This document shows positions 11,525-20,064 of a DNA stretch of 64,000 bases, one piece after another; positions within the stretch are counted from its first letter, which is position 1, and each line of letters opens with the position of its first letter. The notes beneath the pieces were generated by a model. It made no database searches. It was not told the origin of the DNA and worked only from the letters and a program-made list of their open reading frames with translations. Position numbers and translations under genes: made by a program. This DNA comes from Thiobacillus denitrificans DSM 12475 (GTDB lineage Bacteria > Pseudomonadota > Gammaproteobacteria > Burkholderiales > Thiobacillaceae), in assembly GCF_000376425.1 (NCBI RefSeq), contig NZ_AQWL01000009.1, positions 83,293-147,292 on the forward strand. The letters are read 5' to 3'.

Positions 11525-11896
11525 ATGAAACGCACTGCACTTTCCGCCGTCTCCATCCTTGCTGCTGTATTGCACACGGGCTGCAGCGATGACCGGCCGC
11601 TGACGTATCAGGCCCGCATCAAACCGATCCTCGATACCCATTGCGTGTCGTGCCATGTACCCGGCAAACCGGGATATGAACAGTCCGGCCTGCGTCTCGA
11701 CAGCTATGACGCGCTGATGAAGGGCGCCAGGCTCAACCCGGTGGTGCGCCCGGGCTCCAGCTTAAGCAGCACCCTGCACCGGGTGGTATCCGGCCAGCTC
11801 GATCCGTCAATCCGCATGCCGCACGGCGGGCCCATACTATCGGAAGAGAACGCACGCTTGATCGGCGCCTGGATCGATCAGGGAGCGAAGTACTGA
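11525..11896 (+). CDS. Mono-haem cytochrome c-type lipoprotein
   Basis: 123 residues. The N-terminus MKRTALSAVSILAAVLHTGC looks like a lipoprotein signal with an imperfect lipobox (HTGC), so the mature protein would be anchored to a membrane in the periplasm. A single haem-c motif CVSCH is at about residues 40-44, in YQARIKPILDTHCVSCH, typical of the Planctomycete-type cytochrome c domain. The C-terminus IRMPHGGPILSEENARLIGAWIDQGAKY contains a Met that may be the distal ligand. AGGAG lies before the ATG. It stands alone between acnA and the sigma-54 regulator. The electron-transfer partner is unknown. Confidence 0.8.
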   Translation: MKRTALSAVSILAAVLHTGCSDDRPLTYQARIKPILDTHCVSCHVPGKPGYEQSGLRLDSYDALMKGARLNPVVRPGSSLSSTLHRVVSGQLDPSIRMPHGGPILSEENARLIGAWIDQGAKY

Positions 11897-11995: not shown

Positions 11996-13285
11996 TCACC
12001 GGGAGGCCAGTTTCCGGTAGAGCGTTCGCTCGCTGATGTTCAACTGTTCCGCCAGCGACTTGCGGTCGCCACCATGGCGCGCCAGCGCCCATTGCAGATA
12101 ACGCAGTTCGGCTGTTTCCAGCGGCACGATGTCGGCCATGCCGGGCATGCCCGCCGCCTCGTTGTCTCTCAGTTCGGGGGAAAGATGTTCCTCCAGCAGG
12201 ATGTCGCCGTCGGCCATCAGTATCGCGCGTTCGATGATGTTGCGCAGTTCGCGGATATTGCCCGGGTAGTCATAGGCCTGTAGCCGGGCCCGTGCAGGCT
12301 CGCTCAGCGTGTAGGCCCGCCCTGGCGCCAACCGCGTAAGCAGCGTGTCGGCCAGCAGGGTGATGTCGTCACGCCGTTCGCGCAGCGCGGGCAGATGAAT
12401 CGGGAACACGCTCAGCCGGTAATACAGATCCCGACGGAAACTACCCTGCTCGACCATGGCCTTGAGGTCGCAATGGGTGGCGGCGATCAGACGGAAATCG
12501 GCGCGCAGCGTCTCCACGCCCCCGACCCGGCGGAAGGTGCCCGTTTCCAGCAGACGCAGCAGCTTGACCTGCAGGCCGAGCGGAATGTCGCCGATCTCAT
12601 CCAGAAACAGCGTCCCACCCGACGCCGACTCGACCAGGCCGATCTTGCGCTGGCTGGCGCCGGTAAAGGCCCCCTTCTCGTAGCCGAACAGTTCGCTCTC
12701 GAACAGGGTTTCGGTCAGCCCGGAGCATTCCACCACCACGAACGGTCCGTGCTCGCGCCGGCTCTGCTGGTGAATGGCCTGCGCGACCAGTTCCTTGCCG
12801 GTGCCCGATTCGCCAAGTAGCAGGGCAGCCGTACCGGAAGGTGCTACGCGTCGGATCAGTTCGAGCATGCGGTTGAAAGCAGGCGATTTACCGACGAGGC
12901 CGCTTTCGGCAGGAAAGCTGCTGGCTTCGCGCACGGTCAGCATGCGCTCGACGAAATACTCGATCTTTCCCGACGTGCCGACGATCGGCATCAGCTCGAC
13001 GTCGACGTGCTCCTCGCCGCGCGGCGTGTGATGCAGATGCAGCACCCGATGCGGTTCGCCGCTCGCCCGGCTGGCAGCGAGCGGACAGGACTCGCCGCAT
13101 TCGTCACAGGGCCGGTTGTAGCCGTGCGATACCGCATAGCAAAACTGTCCGATCACATTCCGGTCGCCTGCATACACACGGCGATAGGCTCCATTGGCCG
13201 CCAGAATCCGGTAGTCGATCCCCATGACGATCTGCGGGTCAGGCTGGGTTTCAAGAAAGCTGATGAGCTCGTTGGCGGGTGACAT
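11996..13285 (-). CDS. Sigma-54 activator with cysteine-rich PAS sensor
   Basis: 429 residues. PAS-like sensor at 1-120, then an AAA+ domain at about 128-365: Walker A GESGTGKE 158-165, GAFTGA 205-210 (the sigma-54 contact loop), Walker [14 protein letters not shown] and an arginine-finger region ([14 protein letters not shown]). A Fis-type helix-turn-helix closes the C-terminus ([21 protein letters not shown]). The PAS part carries His54 and four cysteines (C49, C60, C63, C67) in [21 protein letters not shown], suggesting thiol, metal or Fe-S sensing. It is transcribed away from cydP; a canonical -24/-12 promoter and two palindromes lie between. Best inference: it activates the cyd-SQR operon in response to a redox or sulfur signal. 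Confidence 0.9.
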
Positions 13286-13301
13286 CGATTTGCAAGCCTT
13301 A

Positions 13302-13347
13302 TGTCATTTATGACAGACAACCCTAGCACTACTTGCCATATATGACA
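13302..13347. promoter_or_regulatory. Two upstream activator palindromes
   Basis: TGTCATTTATGACA (13302-13315, perfect 6-2-6) and TGCCATATATGACA (13334-13347, one mismatch). Their centres are 32 bp apart, about three helical turns, and lie about 92-124 bp upstream of the -24 element, the classic place for sigma-54 enhancer sites. They begin 17 bases from the regulator's start codon, so autoregulation is likely too. Confidence 0.75.
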
Positions 13348-13431
13348 TCCGGTCTTTTCGACATTATTGCCAGTTTTATCTATGCTTTTGAAATCAAATA
13401 AAAATAACGGCAGCTGAATCGTTCAGAGATC

Positions 13432-13446
13432 TGGCACGACACTTGC
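13432..13446 (+). promoter_or_regulatory. Sigma-54 (-24/-12) promoter of the cyd operon
   Basis: TGGCACGACACTTGC matches the consensus TGGCAC-N5-TTGC exactly, with GG and GC correctly spaced. It lies 15 bases before the cydP ATG, so the transcript leader would be very short. The neighbouring divergent gene encodes a sigma-54 activator. Confidence 0.85.
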
Positions 13447-13460
13447 GGGTACGACTCATC

Positions 13461-13676
13461 ATGAAACTCATCTTGCCTGTTTTTCTGCACCATCCTCTGG
13501 CCCGGGAAATCTCGCTCGCCCTCGTCATCAAGCTGTTGGTGATCGCGGCCATTTTTTATGCGTTCTTCGCTGGCCATACACCGAATCCCGACGCCGATGC
13601 CGTCGCCGAACGCATCGCAAGCCCCCATCCACCCACCCAAACTCAACCGTCACTCGGGAGTTCCCATGCTGACTGA
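13461..13676 (+). CDS. cydP: Cytochrome bd small subunit CydP
   Basis: 71 residues, MKLILPVFLHHPLAREISLALVIKLLVIAAIFYAFF then a hydrophilic tail. The P-L-A-R-E-I start followed by one membrane helix (about 17-36) ending in AFF is the signature of CydP, a small protein encoded before cydAB in several proteobacteria. The ATG at 13461 was chosen because the upstream in-frame TTG overlaps the -12 promoter element. Its 3' end overlaps the cydA start by 11 bases. It is the first gene of the sigma-54-controlled operon. Confidence 0.75.
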   Translation: MKLILPVFLHHPLAREISLALVIKLLVIAAIFYAFFAGHTPNPDADAVAERIASPHPPTQTQPSLGSSHAD

Positions 13677-15258
13677 AGAACTCGTCGATCTGTCGCGGTT
13701 GCAATTCGCCGTCACCGCGTTGTATCACTTCCTGTTCGTGCCGCTGACGATCGGTCTGGCGGTGATCCTGGTGGTGATGGAGCTGACCTACGTCATAACC
13801 GATCGTCCAATCTACAAGGACATGGTGCGCTTCTGGGGCAAGTTGTTCGGCATCAACTTCGCGCTCGGGGTGACGACCGGCCTCACGCTGGAATTCCAGT
13901 TCGGCACCAACTGGGCGTACTACTCGCACTATGTTGGCGACATTTTCGGCGCGCCACTGGCGATCGAGGGACTGATGGCGTTCTTTCTCGAATCAACCTT
14001 CATCGGCCTGTTTTTCTTCGGCTGGGACCGCCTCAACAAATGGCAGCACTTCATGGTGACGGTGCTGATGGCGTTCGGCTCCAACCTCTCGGCGCTGTGG
14101 ATCCTGATCGCCAACGGCTGGATGCAGAACCCGCTCGGTTCGGAGTTTTCCTTCGTCACGATGCGAATGGAAATGACGGACTTCTGGGCCATCGTGTTCA
14201 ACCCCGTTGCACAGGCCAAATTCGTTCACACGGTGTCGGCGGGCTATGTCACCGCATCGCTGTTTGTGCTCGGCATTTCCAGCTGGTACCTGCTGAGAGG
14301 CCGCGACCTCGACTTCGCGCGCCGTTCGTTCCGCATCGCCGCCGGCTTCGGCTTCGCCTCGGCCCTGTCGGTGATCGTGCTGGGCGATGAATCCGGCTAT
14401 ACGCTGAGCGAATCCCAACAGGCCAAGATGGCAGCGATGGAAGCGATGTGGGAAACCGAGCCTGCACCCGCCGCGTTCACACTGTTTGCGCTGCCAAACG
14501 AGGCGGCCCAGCGCAATGATTACGAATTGCAGATTCCCTACGTGCTGGGGCTGATCGGCACGCGCTCGACCACCGAGACCCTGCCCGGCATCCGCGAGAT
14601 CAAGGAAAAGAACCGCGAACGCATCGTGGACGGCATCAAGGCGGTGACCGCTTTGGAGCAACTGCGCAGGAATCGCGACGATGCCGCTGCGCTCGCACAG
14701 TTCGAAGCGTACAAGGCCGATCTCGGCTTCGGGCTGCTGCTGAAAAAATACATCGTTGACGTGTCGCAGGCCACACCGGACATGATCCAGCAGGCAGTCG
14801 ACAGCACCATCCCGAGGGTCGCACCGCTGTTCTGGAGTTTCCGCATCATGGTCGCGCTCGGCTTCCTGTTCCTCGCGCTGTTCAGCCTGGCGCTGTTCCA
14901 TTCGATCAAGGGCAATTTCATCGAGAAGAGATGGTTGCTGCGCTGGGCGCTGTGGTTCATCCCGATGCCCTGGATCGCCGCCGAACTCGGCTGGATCGTC
15001 GCCGAATACGGCCGCCAACCCTGGACGATCTATGGTGTATTGCCGACGCATATCTCGGTTTCCAATATTTCCGTCGCGAATGTATACGGCTCGCTCGCGG
15101 GATTTATCGGTTTCTATACCGTGCTGCTCATCGTCGAGATTTATCTGATGAGGAAATACGTACGACTTGGACCTGCCAGCCTCGGCACCGGCAAATACCA
15201 CGGCGAGCAAGCGGCAGGCGGCGCGTTGCCTGTAAACGCACCCGCGAACCGGATCTAG
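13666..15258 (+). CDS. cydA: Cytochrome bd ubiquinol oxidase subunit I
   Basis: 530 residues. Binds haems b558, b595 and d, oxidises quinol and reduces O2. MLTEELVDLSRLQFAVTALYHFLFVPLTIG opens the family; His21 is the likely haem ligand equivalent to His19 of E. coli. The quinol-binding loop is long, as in E. coli CydA rather than short-loop CioA, and is followed by ELGWIVAEYGRQPW. The C-terminus (LMRKYVRLGPASLGTGKYHGEQ) also matches the long-loop class. It starts at the ATG at 13666, with GGGAG upstream, inside the end of cydP. Bd oxidases are typically high-affinity and sulfide-resistant. Confidence 0.96.
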   Translation: MLTEELVDLSRLQFAVTALYHFLFVPLTIGLAVILVVMELTYVITDRPIYKDMVRFWGKLFGINFALGVTTGLTLEFQFGTNWAYYSHYVGDIFGAPLAIEGLMAFFLESTFIGLFFFGWDRLNKWQHFMVTVLMAFGSNLSALWILIANGWMQNPLGSEFSFVTMRMEMTDFWAIVFNPVAQAKFVHTVSAGYVTASLFVLGISSWYLLRGRDLDFARRSFRIAAGFGFASALSVIVLGDESGYTLSESQQAKMAAMEAMWETEPAPAAFTLFALPNEAAQRNDYELQIPYVLGLIGTRSTTETLPGIREIKEKNRERIVDGIKAVTALEQLRRNRDDAAALAQFEAYKADLGFGLLLKKYIVDVSQATPDMIQQAVDSTIPRVAPLFWSFRIMVALGFLFLALFSLALFHSIKGNFIEKRWLLRWALWFIPMPWIAAELGWIVAEYGRQPWTIYGVLPTHISVSNISVANVYGSLAGFIGFYTVLLIVEIYLMRKYVRLGPASLGTGKYHGEQAAGGALPVNAPANRI

Positions 15259-15267
15259 GGAGCGGAC

Positions 15268-16404
15268 ATGGATTACGAAACCCTCAAACTCGTGTGGTGG
15301 TTGCTGGTCGGCGTGCTGCTGATCGGGTTCGCGATCATGGACGGCCACGACATGGGTGTCGGCACCCTGCTGCCTTTCGTCGGCCGAACCGACCTCGAAC
15401 GCCGCGCCGTCATCAATACCGTCGCGGCGCACTGGGAAGGCAACCAGGTCTGGTTCGTCACCGCGGGCGGTGCGCTATTCGCCGCCTGGCCACTGGTTTA
15501 CGCAACGGCGTTCTCGGGTTTTTACTGGGCGATGATGGCGGCATTGTGGGCCTTGTTCTTCCGCCCGGTGGGTTTCACCTACCGTTCCAAGATCCAGAAT
15601 GCAAGCTGGCGCAGCACCTGGGACTGGGGCCTGTTCATCGGTGGCGCTGTGCCGCCGATCATCTTCGGCGTTGCTTTTGGCAACCTGCTCCTCGGCGTGC
15701 CGTTCCACTTCAACGACCTGATGATGTCGACCTACACCGGCAGTTTCTGGGCGCTGCTCAATCCGTTTGCCCTGCTCGCTGGCGTGGTCAGTCTGGGCAT
15801 GCTCACCTTCCACGGCGCAAACTATATGATGATGCGCACCGAAGGGCCCATCTACCGCCGCACCCGTACCGCCAGCCTCATTTTCGGGGTGCTGACCCTC
15901 TTCGCCTTCGCGCTCGCCGGATGGTGGGTCGCGACCAGCATCGACGGCTATGCCATCACCAGTGTCATCGACGGCAACAGCCCGCCCGACCCATTGGCCA
16001 AAACCGTCGTAATTGCCGAAGGTGCATGGATGCTCAACTATAACCACTATCCCTGGACGATATGGGTGCCCATCGTGGCGTTCATCGCACTGGCGGCAGG
16101 AATCCTGTTCGCACGGCTCCACAAGGCGGGGCTGGCATTCTGGTCGTCGTCGACCGCCTGCGCCGGCATCATCGGCACCGCCGGAGTATCGATGTTTCCG
16201 TTCATCATGCCGTCGTCCACCGACCCGCGTTCCAGCCTCACTTTATATGACGCGGTGTCGTCGCATCTCACACTGGGCCTGATGCTGGGTGCCACGGTGA
16301 TTTTTATTCCGCTGATCGTGATCTATACCTCGTGGGCCTACAAGGTGATGTGGGGCAAGGTCACGACCGAATTCATTTCCGCCAACGACAAGTCGGTTTA
16401 CTGA
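15268..16404 (+). CDS. cydB: Cytochrome bd ubiquinol oxidase subunit II
   Basis: 378 residues, the normal length, with about eight or nine membrane helices. The N-terminus MDYETLKLVWWLLVGVLLIGFAIMDGHDMGVG is the family hallmark, followed by HWEGNQVWFVTAGGALFAAWP. It forms the structural half of the bd oxidase dimer with CydA. Nine bases separate it from cydA, with a GGAG before the ATG. It continues into cydX 11 bases downstream. Confidence 0.97.
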   Translation: MDYETLKLVWWLLVGVLLIGFAIMDGHDMGVGTLLPFVGRTDLERRAVINTVAAHWEGNQVWFVTAGGALFAAWPLVYATAFSGFYWAMMAALWALFFRPVGFTYRSKIQNASWRSTWDWGLFIGGAVPPIIFGVAFGNLLLGVPFHFNDLMMSTYTGSFWALLNPFALLAGVVSLGMLTFHGANYMMMRTEGPIYRRTRTASLIFGVLTLFAFALAGWWVATSIDGYAITSVIDGNSPPDPLAKTVVIAEGAWMLNYNHYPWTIWVPIVAFIALAAGILFARLHKAGLAFWSSSTACAGIIGTAGVSMFPFIMPSSTDPRSSLTLYDAVSSHLTLGLMLGATVIFIPLIVIYTSWAYKVMWGKVTTEFISANDKSVY

Positions 16405-16415
16405 AAGGAAGCGCC

Positions 16416-16553
16416 GTGTGGTATTTCGCCTGGATACTCGGAGTCACCATGGCCGTGCTGCTCGCGACGATCAGTGCGATGATGTGTGACGCTAGGGAAT
16501 ACGCGCCCGACGAAGCGCATGATCGGAACACAAACGACACACGGCAAGGCTGA
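16416..16553 (+). CDS. cydX: Cytochrome bd small subunit CydX
   Basis: 45 residues starting at a GTG: MWYFAWILGVTMAVLLATISAM and a short polar tail. MWYFAWILG is identical to the E. coli CydX start, and the single helix is what stabilises the haem site of CydAB. AAAGGAAG lies just before the GTG. Placement 11 bases after cydB completes the bd oxidase gene set. Confidence 0.93.
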   Translation: MWYFAWILGVTMAVLLATISAMMCDAREYAPDEAHDRNTNDTRQG

Positions 16554-16626
16554 TCGTTTACATGATCAAGCACACCCGCATCACGCGGAAAAATCATTGT
16601 TTTGCCTGGATCGCACAGGCGTGTTG

Positions 16627-17787
16627 ATGGAGTCTGCCGTGAATCCACCCCACATTGCCGTTCTCGGATCGGGATTCGCAGCGCTCACCGCCGTGCGTGA
16701 ACTGCGACGGCACCATCGTGACGCACGGATCACGCTCGTCGCGCCCCGGGCCGCGCTGACGTATTACCCGAGCCTGATCTGGGTGCCCGCCGGATTACGA
16801 CGCGGCGCCGATCTCGATATCGACGTGTCACGCTTTCTCGCCGGGCAGAATGTCGAATTCCACGCCGGGCGTGTCAGCGGCCTCGCCGATGGCGGCCGCA
16901 CCGTACTGACCGGGAACGGCAGCATAACGAATGATGCGCTGCTGATCGCCAGCGGCGGCCGCTTCCTCAAGTCCCTGCCCGGCATCGAACATGCCCTGAC
17001 GATCTGCGAAGGCGTGGCTGCCGCCGAATCGATCCGTGAGCGTCTGGAAAAAATGGACCGTGGCACGATCGCCCTCGGCTTCGGCACCAATCCCAGGGAG
17101 CAGGGTGCGATGCGTGGCGGCCCGATGTTCGAACTGCTGTTCGGCATCGACACCCTACTGCGCCGTCAGGGTCGCCGTGATCGCTTCAAGCTGGTGTTCT
17201 TCCACGCAGCGAAAGCGCCGGGCAAGCGCCTCGGCGAGAAGGCAGTCGCCGGCCTGCTGCGCGAAATGCAGAAGCGCGACATCGCGACCCATCTCGGCCA
17301 CAAACCCACGGGCTTCGAGGCCGACCGGGTCAAGACCGAAGGCGGCGACGTGCCCGCCGACCTGATTCTCTTCATGCCCGGCATGAGCGGCCCTGCCTGG
17401 GCAAGCGAGACCGGGCTGCCGCTCTCCGACGGTGGATTTTTCCAGGCCGACGCATACTGCCAGGTCACTAGCGCCGACAAGGTCTACGTGGCCGGCGATT
17501 GCGGCAGCTACCCCGGGCCCGACTGGCTGCCCAAGCAGGCGCACATCGCCGACCTGCAGGCCAAAGCCGCCGCGAAGAATCTGCTGCGGGCGCTGGCGGG
17601 CAAGCCTGCGGTCGCGCGCTTCAAGGTCGAGCTCATCTGCATCGTCGATACGCTCGACCGCGGCATCCTCGTTTACCGCAACGAAAAGCGCGCACTCATG
17701 TTGCCGTCATGCCGCCTGTTTCACTGGGCCAAGCGCTTTTTCGAATGGCAGTATCTGCGCTCCTACCGCCGCACCACACGCACGTGA
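16627..17787 (+). CDS. SQR-like FAD:quinone oxidoreductase
   Basis: 386 residues from ATG 16627; a GTG at 16639 is preceded by GGAG at good spacing and may be the true start. FAD-binding GSGFAALTAVREL near the N-terminus, a second flavin motif VYVAGDCGSYPGPDWLPKQAHIADLQAKAAAKNL, and a C-terminal amphipathic segment (LFHWAKRFFEWQYLRSYR) suited to membrane docking are all typical of the sulfide:quinone reductase/NDH-2 superfamily. Cysteines in ICEGVAA and ELICIVDT could form the sulfide site, but I cannot align them with certainty. It lies between cydX and ybgE and overlaps ybgE by four bases, suggesting that its quinol feeds the bd oxidase. Confidence 0.75.
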   Translation: MESAVNPPHIAVLGSGFAALTAVRELRRHHRDARITLVAPRAALTYYPSLIWVPAGLRRGADLDIDVSRFLAGQNVEFHAGRVSGLADGGRTVLTGNGSITNDALLIASGGRFLKSLPGIEHALTICEGVAAAESIRERLEKMDRGTIALGFGTNPREQGAMRGGPMFELLFGIDTLLRRQGRRDRFKLVFFHAAKAPGKRLGEKAVAGLLREMQKRDIATHLGHKPTGFEADRVKTEGGDVPADLILFMPGMSGPAWASETGLPLSDGGFFQADAYCQVTSADKVYVAGDCGSYPGPDWLPKQAHIADLQAKAAAKNLLRALAGKPAVARFKVELICIVDTLDRGILVYRNEKRALMLPSCRLFHWAKRFFEWQYLRSYRRTTRT

Positions 17788-18071
17788 ACGGCGCATTCAA
17801 CACAGGCTGGGCGCGTGGCGTGTCGCTGGGATCGGCTCTGATGATGATGGTTCTGATCACCGTGTTTCCGCGCGGCCTGACGATCGCCGGCGGCAGCCCG
17901 ATCAACCACGGCATCCTCGCGCTCATCATGTGGGGTCTGTCGGCCGGTTTCGTCCACGGCACAGGCTTCGTCCCGCACAACCCGATGTTGCGCGTGGCGC
18001 TCGGTCCATTGATCGCCTGGCCGTTGATGGGTGTCGGGCTGGCTTTTTATATCCGGTATTTTTTGAGGTGA
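17784..18071 (+). CDS. ybgE: Cyd operon protein YbgE
   Basis: 95 residues from a GTG (17784) that overlaps the previous stop (GTGA). Three membrane helices, with the conserved GFVHGTGFVPHNPMLR segment, corresponding to the V-H-G-[IV]-G-F motif of E. coli YbgE, which is encoded after cydX. It assists the bd oxidase in a way not fully defined. Here it is separated from cydX by the SQR-like gene, an unusual order. Probable end of the operon. Confidence 0.8.
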   Translation: MNGAFNTGWARGVSLGSALMMMVLITVFPRGLTIAGGSPINHGILALIMWGLSAGFVHGTGFVPHNPMLRVALGPLIAWPLMGVGLAFYIRYFLR

Positions 18072-18291: not shown

Positions 18292-18864
18292 ATGAAAAAA
18301 TCCCTGATTGTGATCCTGCTGCTCACCGGCTGCGCCACCTATGGCACCCAAACCGCGCAACCCGAGCAGGTCGAAGAAAGTCGCAATGTGGCCAAGTCCC
18401 TGGGCATGCAACTGAGCGCCAAGCTGAAGGCGGAGGTAAGCGCCAACGGGCCTGCATCCGCCGTCGGCGTGTGCAAGGAAATCGCACCTCAAATTGCATC
18501 CGGCTTGTCCAGACAAACCGGTTGGGAAGTAGGCCGCGTCGGCACGCGTGTGCGCAACGCCAGGACGGGTACGCCGGACGCCTGGGAGGCGAAGGCGCTG
18601 GCGAACTTCAGCGAGCGCATGAAACAGGGCGAGAAGCCCGACACGATGGAACTGGCCGAAGTCGTGACCGAACCGTCCGGAAAATATCTGCGCTACGCCA
18701 AGGCCGTCGCCGTGCAGCCCCAATGTCTCACCTGCCACGGCCCGGCCGAATCGATTCCGGCAGGCGTCAAGGCACGCCTGCAGACTGAATATCCGATGGA
18801 CCAGGCCACCGGCTATCAGGCTGGTGAATTGCGCGGCGCCATCGTCGTCAAGCGGCCGCTTTGA
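18292..18864 (+). CDS. Haem-binding lipoprotein, DUF3365 (Tll0287-like)
   Basis: 190 residues. The signal MKKSLIVILLLTGC ends in a good lipobox (LTGC). One haem-c motif CLTCH is near residue 145 in VAVQPQCLTCHGPAESIP, embedded in the DUF3365 pattern (GVCKEIAPQIASGLSRQTGWEVGRVGTRVRNARTGTPDAWE). Such proteins are periplasmic haem sensors or electron carriers. It lies 220 bases after ybgE on the same strand; AAGGA precedes the ATG. It may be a separate unit, but it adds to the respiratory theme. Confidence 0.85.
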   Translation: MKKSLIVILLLTGCATYGTQTAQPEQVEESRNVAKSLGMQLSAKLKAEVSANGPASAVGVCKEIAPQIASGLSRQTGWEVGRVGTRVRNARTGTPDAWEAKALANFSERMKQGEKPDTMELAEVVTEPSGKYLRYAKAVAVQPQCLTCHGPAESIPAGVKARLQTEYPMDQATGYQAGELRGAIVVKRPL

Positions 18865-19137: not shown

Positions 19138-20064
19138 ATGAGTGACCGCGGCATTCCGCGCACCTACCGTCACATGCACGGCTTCGGCAGTCACACTTCC
19201 AGTCTCATCAATGCCAACGGCGAACGCTTCTGGGTCAAGTTTCACTTCAAGTGCATGCAGGGCATCGAGAACCTCACCAATGGCGAGGCCGAATCCATCG
19301 TTGCCAAAGATCGCGAGAGCCACCAGCGCGACCTCTACGAAGCGATCGAACGGGGCGACTTTCCGTGCTGGGAATTCAAGGTGCAGGTCATGCCGGAGAA
19401 GGATGCGGCCATGTATCGCTTCCACCCTTTCGACCTGACCAAGGTCTGGCCGCACGGCGATTATCCGCTCATCGACGTCGGCGTTCTGGAGCTTAACCGC
19501 AGCCCCGAGAACTATTTCGCCGAGGGCGGGCAGGCGGCCTTCAATCCGGCCAACATCGTTCCCGGGATCGGGTTTTCGCCCGACAGAATACTGCAGGGGC
19601 GCCTGTTCTCCTACAGTGATGCGCAGCGTTACCGACTGGGTGTGAACAATGCGCAGATTCCGGTCAACAAGCCGCGTTGCCCGGTTAACAGCCACCACCG
19701 TGACGGCGCGATGCGCGTCGACGGCAACTACGGTAGCACCAAGGCGTATGAACCCAATAGTCTGGAATTGTGGCAGGAAAACCTGGAAGCCAAGGAATCG
19801 CAGTTGGCACTTTCGGGCGAAGCCTACAACTGGAACTACCGCGAGGACGATGACGGCTATTACACCCAGCCCGGTATGCTGTTCCGCCTCATGACGCCGG
19901 CACAGCAGCAGGCCCTGTTCGACAATACCGCGGCCGAACTGGCGAGTGTCGACGATATGGTGAGAAAGCGTCACATCGGCAACTGCATGAAAGCCGATCC
20001 TGCCTATGGCGAAGGCATAGCCAAGGCACGGGGAATAGCGCTGAGCGAAGTGCCCTCGGCATAA
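19138..20064 (+). pseudogene. Catalase KatA remnant lacking the N-terminus
   Basis: 308 residues homologous to the C-terminal two thirds of clade-3 haem catalases (about 480). It begins at [20 protein letters not shown], which in whole catalases is about residue 170. The distal His and Asn that perform catalysis are therefore missing, while the proximal haem Tyr region ([14 protein letters not shown]) and the NADPH/haem core remain. In frame upstream there are only 19 more codons before a TGA at 19078-19080, with no catalase-like sequence. No ribosome site fits the ATG. Best read as a 5'-deleted gene; a peroxidase-like residual role cannot be excluded. Confidence 0.8.

Follow-up and report, generated by a model that had tools for sequence, protein, structure and literature searches.

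Sulfide is toxic to heme-copper oxidases, and the bacterial response is to make cytochrome bd oxidase. The mechanism of this sulfide-dependent induction had remained unknown according to the available portion of a study that proposes for Escherichia coli the sulfide-responsive SqrR/BigR-type repressor YgaV, linked to cydAB by RNA-seq (PMC9774250). FisR of Cupriavidus pinatubonensis is described, in the accessible text, to form a C53-C64 tetrasulfide with sulfane sulfur (PMC8614764). In Acinetobacter baumannii FisR is a divergent sigma-54 activator that the pdo1-sqr-tauE operon requires for its induction by sulfide, and cydAB is also sulfide-induced (PMC7315123, in part). In C. necator a mutation upstream of cydA2B2 raises expression, and the authors, as far as the available text goes, predict a new sigma-70 promoter (PMC10164946). 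Here we describe a divergent pair of a sigma-54 activator gene and a cytochrome bd operon in a 64-kb stretch of Thiobacillus denitrificans DSM 12475 (64,000 nucleotides, positions 83,293 to 147,292 of contig NZ_AQWL01000009.1; hereafter the window). Judged from its sequence the activator is of the FisR type, and the locus probably lets persulfide induce a bd-I oxidase by way of sigma-54.

Regulator, promoter and upstream dyads

The activator gene occupies 11996-13285 on the minus strand, and the divergent plus-strand cluster cydP-cydA-cydB-cydX-flavoprotein-ybgE spans 13461-18071. Profile searches and translations bear out the gene order, the divergence and the gene identities given in a preliminary description made from the letters alone, and they delimit the following features.

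11996-13285, minus strand: gene of the predicted FisR-type sigma-54 activator (Pfam PF08448, PF00158, PF25601 and PF02954 over cut-offs)
13302-13315, no strand: upstream dyad 1, TGTCATTTATGACA, probable activator site (exact TGNCA-N4-TGNCA)
13334-13347, no strand: upstream dyad 2, TGCCATATATGACA, predicted activator site (exact TGNCA-N4-TGNCA)
13379-13390, no strand: conserved CTATNNNNTTGA-like element between dyads and promoter (alignment)
13432-13446, plus strand: predicted -24/-12 sigma-54 promoter TGGCACGACACTTGC (TGGCAC-N5-TTGC, strict match)
13461-13676, plus strand: cydP, small oxidase subunit (NF045611 57.6 bits, cut-off 29.6)
13666-15258, plus strand: cydA, bd-I type oxidase subunit I (PF01654 E=2.4e-175, over cut-off)
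15268-16404, plus strand: cydB, subunit II (TIGR00203 492 bits, cut-off 117)
16416-16553, plus strand: cydX, small subunit (TIGR02106 and PF08173 over cut-offs)
about 16627-17787, plus strand: SQR-like flavoprotein, SQR being sulfide:quinone oxidoreductase (PF07992 over cut-off)
17784-18071, plus strand: ybgE, cyd operon small membrane protein (PF09600 61.4 bits, cut-off 25.2)
18292-18864, plus strand: Tll0287-like protein with a CxxCH motif (PF11845)

The genes are tightly packed, as cydP overlaps cydA and the ybgE start overlaps the flavoprotein stop, the cydA-cydB and cydB-cydX gaps measure about 10 bp and the cydX-flavoprotein gap about 73 bp. Every gene from the regulator to ybgE exceeds a Pfam cut-off, save cydP, whose identity comes from NCBIfam. 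Profile matches to CydA, CydB and CydX together identify the product as a cytochrome bd-I oxidase; the best NCBIfam model for cydA scores 793 bits, below its cut-off of 968, and TIGR02112 gives ybgE 31.9 bits, below its cut-off of 89.55. The genome (3.61 Mb, 38 contigs) contains one cydA match, four COX1-type oxidase genes and one rpoN match, and the coexistence of four COX1-type genes with a single cydA counts for the persulfide-responsive reading.

The regulator consists of a PAS-like sensor, an AAA+ sigma-54 domain that contains GAFTGA, and a Fis-type helix-turn-helix, and its sensor contains C49, H54, C60, C63 and C67, all of them residues that the preliminary description had picked out. 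In an alignment of 39 sensors, namely that of the window and those of 38 of 79 eligible loci among the named loci introduced below, C49, H54, C60, C67, H83 and H85 are invariant and C63 varies. The spacing of C49, C60 and C67, 11 and 7, is that of FisR, and the pattern C-x3-SH-x5-C-x6-C recurs in 137 of 137 distinct full-length relatives gathered by sensor similarity. C. metallidurans CH34 encodes a named relative of full length (55% identity over 98%), which has cysteines at 53, 64 and 71 (C. pinatubonensis FisR presumably has C71 as well) and is divergent from a persulfide-dioxygenase-family gene. The product of this gene matches the ETHE1 persulfide dioxygenase (4chl) with an E value of 3.9e-29 and reaches 389 bits over the dioxygenase part of NF040641, a model whose whole-protein cut-off of 625 refers to a longer fusion. 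The genome also encodes a paralogue with about 45% identity to the window regulator (G000:C5), divergent from a three-cysteine SQR, with upstream sites that fit the dyad less well. Assignment of the window regulator as NorR was rejected, since the curated NorR model gives 283 bits against a cut-off of 476. On sequence grounds, then, the window regulator is FisR-type. The earlier suggestion of a thiol or metal signal stands in its first half, now specified as a FisR-type thiol sensor; metal sensing has no support here.

The promoter proposed earlier for 13440-13470 is indeed present, slightly upstream of that interval, and TGGCACGACACTTGC at 13432-13446 is the sole strict -24/-12 match on both strands of the window. 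The cydP start follows the -12 element after 14 nt, a distance that, together with the usual distance to the start site, leaves little or no leader. Overlooked in the preliminary description were the two dyads, TGTCATTTATGACA and TGCCATATATGACA, which stand 32 bp apart about 85-130 bp upstream of the promoter; the window has no further exact copy of TGNCA-N4-TGNCA. Because the dyad was first noticed here, the window is no independent test of it, and the relatives serve as the test. In 19 aligned intergenic regions (18 from the genus, the other that of G502, a fellow member of the order) both the -24/-12 core and the places of the dyads are kept while the spacer within the core varies and the DNA between diverges. 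The CTATNNNNTTGA-like element is also conserved in this alignment; it does not resemble Fnr or IHF sites clearly and may be the regulator's own promoter.

Across 32 intergenic regions between such a regulator and cyd the strict promoter matches in all ten positions in 22 and in at least nine in 26 (shuffle means 0.01 and 0.25), and 21 of them contain a pair of dyads, spaced 30-34 bp and neither deviating in more than one base (shuffle mean 0.0); one of the 32, from G803, adjoins a regulator frame of only about 130 residues, perhaps broken or cut. The matches to the -24/-12 core in regulator-cyd regions are thus beyond chance. Ten regulator-SQR regions yielded three full cores, eight matches of at least 9/10 and nine dyad pairs. 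Thirteen control cyd promoters with no regulator seen nearby gave one full core, two matches of at least 9/10 (G1079, with no regulator seen, scores 9/10) and no dyad pair, where for three controls (L245, L247 and L179) less than 700 bp of upstream DNA is at hand, so that regulator absence is not shown for them. A relaxed -24/-12 pattern, picked after the sequences had been seen, is present in 44 of the 50 cyd-facing regions, against a shuffle mean of 0.66. Furthermore, all 16 distinct exact dyad pairs found in 3.5 Mb of DNA, taken mostly from around FisR-type genes, are no more than 300 bp away from the start of a FisR-type gene. Three loci with the same regulator-cyd layout (G1044, G1057 and G1116; L240, L242 and L244) have a -12 element one base off TTGC. 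From the promoter, the enhancer-like footprint and the single rpoN match, sigma-54 control of cyd by the window regulator, as the preliminary description had supposed, is very likely.

The proposed mechanism would run as follows. Sulfane sulfur, as persulfide or polysulfide, would modify the sensor cysteines of the activator, which would bind both dyads; the modified activator would then allow sigma-54 RNA polymerase to transcribe cydPABX-flavoprotein-ybgE, so that the cell would gain a bd-I quinol oxidase resistant to sulfide at times when its heme-copper oxidases are endangered by sulfide or the products of sulfide oxidation.

Partner genes and the nature of the signal

How general is the pairing of such a regulator with cyd? 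The named loci are the best 80 of 590 confirmed ones, which is not a random sample, and up to 8 kb were fetched on the divergent side. This side holds cydA in 35 of the 80, nine of them also with SQR and 11 also with the flavoprotein; four further loci have the flavoprotein without cydA (15 of 80 with it in all), and 41 have none of the three, many facing CcoG, Rieske or a metallo-beta-lactamase-fold protein. The earlier statement that bd oxidases are usually not under sigma-54 therefore looks too strong. The nearest named loci are mostly labelled Thiobacillus or Hydrogenophilales (one metagenome-assembled genome is labelled Rhizobium), T. thioparus DSM 505 being among them. The regulator-cyd pairing, whose recurrence elsewhere had been put forward as a check, is found in records labelled Thiobacillaceae, Comamonadaceae, Rhodocyclaceae, Zoogloeaceae and Pseudoalteromonas. 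In Pseudoalteromonas xiamenensis the regulator is divergent from cydP, the cyd genes, cydX and ybgE. At class level seven of 40 sensor loci have a divergent bd-I type cydA, two of them (G716 and G803) with SQR further along, and ten others have SQR on that side. At family level 38 genomes have a cydA match, G1090, G1109 and G1111 being left out of the neighbour survey, and the regulator is divergent in 18 of 31 cyd loci.

Sulfide oxidation and bd oxidase do share a cluster in relatives, as had been proposed for the window. The order is cydPABX-ybgE-SQR in T. thioparus DSM 505 and other congeners and cydPABX-flavoprotein-ybgE-SQR in G005, G016 and G1120, and the SQR of G016, the only SQR following cyd that was aligned, possesses the full set of three SQR cysteines. 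In nine of the 137 loci cyd and SQR are separated by a globin-like match. The first recognised partner within 2.5 kb of the 137 regulators is cydA in 50, CcoG in 19, SQR in 17, a metallo-beta-lactamase-fold protein in 11, Rieske in nine, truncated globin in four and persulfide dioxygenase in two, with none in 25; the C. metallidurans gene is counted under the metallo-beta-lactamase fold because both probes match the same dioxygenase. Related activators that face SQR or dioxygenase genes have the same kind of upstream sites. In L303, L296, L272 and other Dechloromonas or Azonexus loci a FisR-type regulator is divergent from ccoG, whose product is an assembly factor for another oxidase type, and dyad-like sites lie upstream.

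In a tree of the 137 regulators, a quick search with no bootstrap and with identical copies and regulators below 380 residues left out, the window regulator belongs to a well-supported group of 20-21 cyd-facing regulators (SH-aLRT 99-100), which is nested in a group of 115 (support 100) that includes SQR-, dioxygenase- and CcoG-facing regulators. Well-supported branches force at least eight label changes, so that the cyd-facing regulators do not form one clade, and we read the pattern as an exchange of partner genes around a conserved sensor.

The recurrence of SQR and dioxygenase partners, the FisR cysteines and the footprint of promoter and dyads support sulfane sulfur, which is quite likely the regulator's signal. 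It could be imagined that the regulator descends from the FisR family but that its cyd branch uses the same cysteines to sense NO, low oxygen or disulfide stress. The CcoG, Rieske and globin partners and the scattered positions of the cyd-facing regulators in the tree would fit such a divergence, as would C63, an additional cysteine in the window sensor. However, all 137 relatives retain the FisR cysteine triad with its spacing, and SQR and dioxygenase genes recur as partners even within cyd clusters, so that we regard this alternative as unlikely.

Several observations nevertheless weigh against persulfide-responsive induction from a sigma-54 promoter. The CcoG-, Rieske- and globin-facing relatives mean that the signal could be broader, and the window operon contains no canonical SQR. 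Among the 50 cyd-facing regions the strict promoter falls below 9/10 in 18, the relaxed one is absent from six and the exact dyad from 12; for comparison, two of 19 CcoG-facing regions reach at least nine with the strict promoter and 17 of 19 contain the relaxed pattern. The complete motif and two dyads, 22 bp apart, are present in G1104, where no regulator was seen within about 5 kb. Finally, a weak sigma-70-like match at 13358-13386 is directed towards cyd (two in the region, 1.2 expected).

Flavoprotein, alternative promoter and neighbouring genes

The preliminary description took the flavoprotein for an SQR. PF07992 and its solved relatives place it in the SQR-type fold family, the nearest chains being 3h8i (1e-19; deposited as an NADH oxidase, which we take to be an SQR), the SQR 3hyv (2.6e-15) and the NDH-type YjlD (5e-14). 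No NCBIfam model reached its cut-off on it, and NF049943, of a selenoprotein subtype, gives 61 bits against a cut-off of 525, a model on which a canonical SQR of the same genome scores only 113. Two SQR cysteines are held to form the catalytic pair, and one of them corresponds to an arginine here. C126, C337 and R162-G-G-P (numbered from base 16630) are invariant in 47 of 47 aligned members, Arg162 presumably occupying the position of C156 in the Aquifex aeolicus enzyme.

Could the operon flavoprotein nevertheless be a working SQR, so that the transcript alone carries a path from sulfide to oxygen? It is like the SQRs in its fold family, its FAD motifs, a C-terminal stretch that can be aligned with theirs and two of the three cysteines found in SQRs of the same genus, and unlike them in the arginine that stands for the third. 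With one cysteine of the catalytic pair absent from every aligned member, and with two SQR-type genes present elsewhere in the genome, one adjoined by its own FisR-type regulator, this is improbable. The identification as a canonical SQR was accordingly given up, and the proposal that one cluster unites sulfide oxidation with bd oxidase holds for the relatives with SQR after cyd, not for the window flavoprotein. An NADH dehydrogenase is disfavoured only, as no clear second nucleotide-binding motif was seen by eye and one solved relative is of the NDH type. Judged by its sequence the flavoprotein is an SQR-like family of its own, and annotation as SQR would misname it; we infer a membrane-associated, quinone-linked enzyme of the SQR superfamily that acts on a sulfur compound by a route other than the usual cysteine pair.

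The family occurs in 29 of 398 phylum genomes and 19 of 300 order genomes (two of the 19 partial), the genome of the window being counted in both. It is not a general partner of cyd: among 43 loci from 45 genomes other than that of the window, two partial matches being left out, only the one in G502 has cyd within 9 kb.

Returning to the promoter, it is very improbable that cyd is transcribed mainly from a sigma-70 promoter under an Fnr-like factor with the sigma-54 site minor, since the weak sigma-70-like match and the conserved CTATNNNNTTGA-like element upstream of cyd are set against a match count near chance, a sigma-54 core conserved across diverged DNA and the lack in the region of any Fnr-like site below three mismatches in ten from the consensus. 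Consensus strings for IHF, ArcA and NsrR likewise gave no good match there, the IHF-like matches carrying two mismatches.

The Tll0287-like gene follows ybgE after 220 bp. A relative with 82% identity follows SQR in the congener G005, and another Tll0287-like gene lies near a globin gene in the FisR-linked locus L300; the gene in the window is a possible further member of the regulon. On the cyd side of the window regulator neither SQR nor globin gave a match. Near the cyd cluster a catalase frame (19138-20064, plus strand) begins at position 173 of its Pfam profile, and as the N-terminal part is absent the gene appears truncated. Downstream of the regulator gene a small c-type cytochrome-like protein is encoded (11525-11896, plus strand; PF07635), and a relative with about 60% identity adjoins the same locus in G009.

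Comparison with known systems

The literature search covered open-access papers, and the available portions of those retrieved, including PMC7315123 and PMC8148161, contain no report of FisR or an adjacent sigma-54 activator controlling cydAB; likewise no FisR-cyd link appears in the accessible parts of PMC12316311, PMC2864759 and PMC5322542. The identification, from sequence, of a cyd-divergent regulator as FisR-type is new here. It places this sensor family right at cyd promoters that possess a sigma-54 site and operators to match, in several bacterial families, and suggests a direct route from sulfide exposure to a respiratory enzyme immune to sulfide poisoning. As the sensor family has a published sulfane-sulfur mechanism, a direct persulfide-to-oxidase switch becomes testable, and cultured carriers of the pairing are Thiobacillus thioparus DSM 505 and Hydrogenophaga taeniospiralis. 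G1053 (L228), apparently the same locus as that of T. thioparus DSM 505 (L260), contains the dyads and the complete -24/-12 core. More broadly, the chances seem evenly balanced that FisR-type activators head a respiratory regulon in Beta- and Gammaproteobacteria that would use the one operator type TGNCA-N4-TGNCA to reroute electrons when persulfide builds up, with lineage-specific mixes of bd oxidase, SQR, persulfide dioxygenase, bc1 Rieske, CcoG and globin and with the new two-cysteine SQR-like family as a partner.

The E. coli YgaV system resembles the locus in its sulfide-responsive link to cydAB and differs in that YgaV is an SqrR/BigR-type repressor. In A. baumannii, cydAB lies at a separate locus that the available text does not tie to FisR (PMC7315123). 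Another close system is FisR of C. pinatubonensis JMP134 (PMC8614764 and PMC9918477, each in part), which, compared by way of the C. metallidurans relative, shares with the window regulator the sensor cysteines and their spacing, the domain order and a divergent promoter region with dyads. The reported targets of that FisR are sulfide-oxidising genes, sqr and pdo, whereas the predicted target in the window is the cytochrome bd operon, and relatives face either or both.

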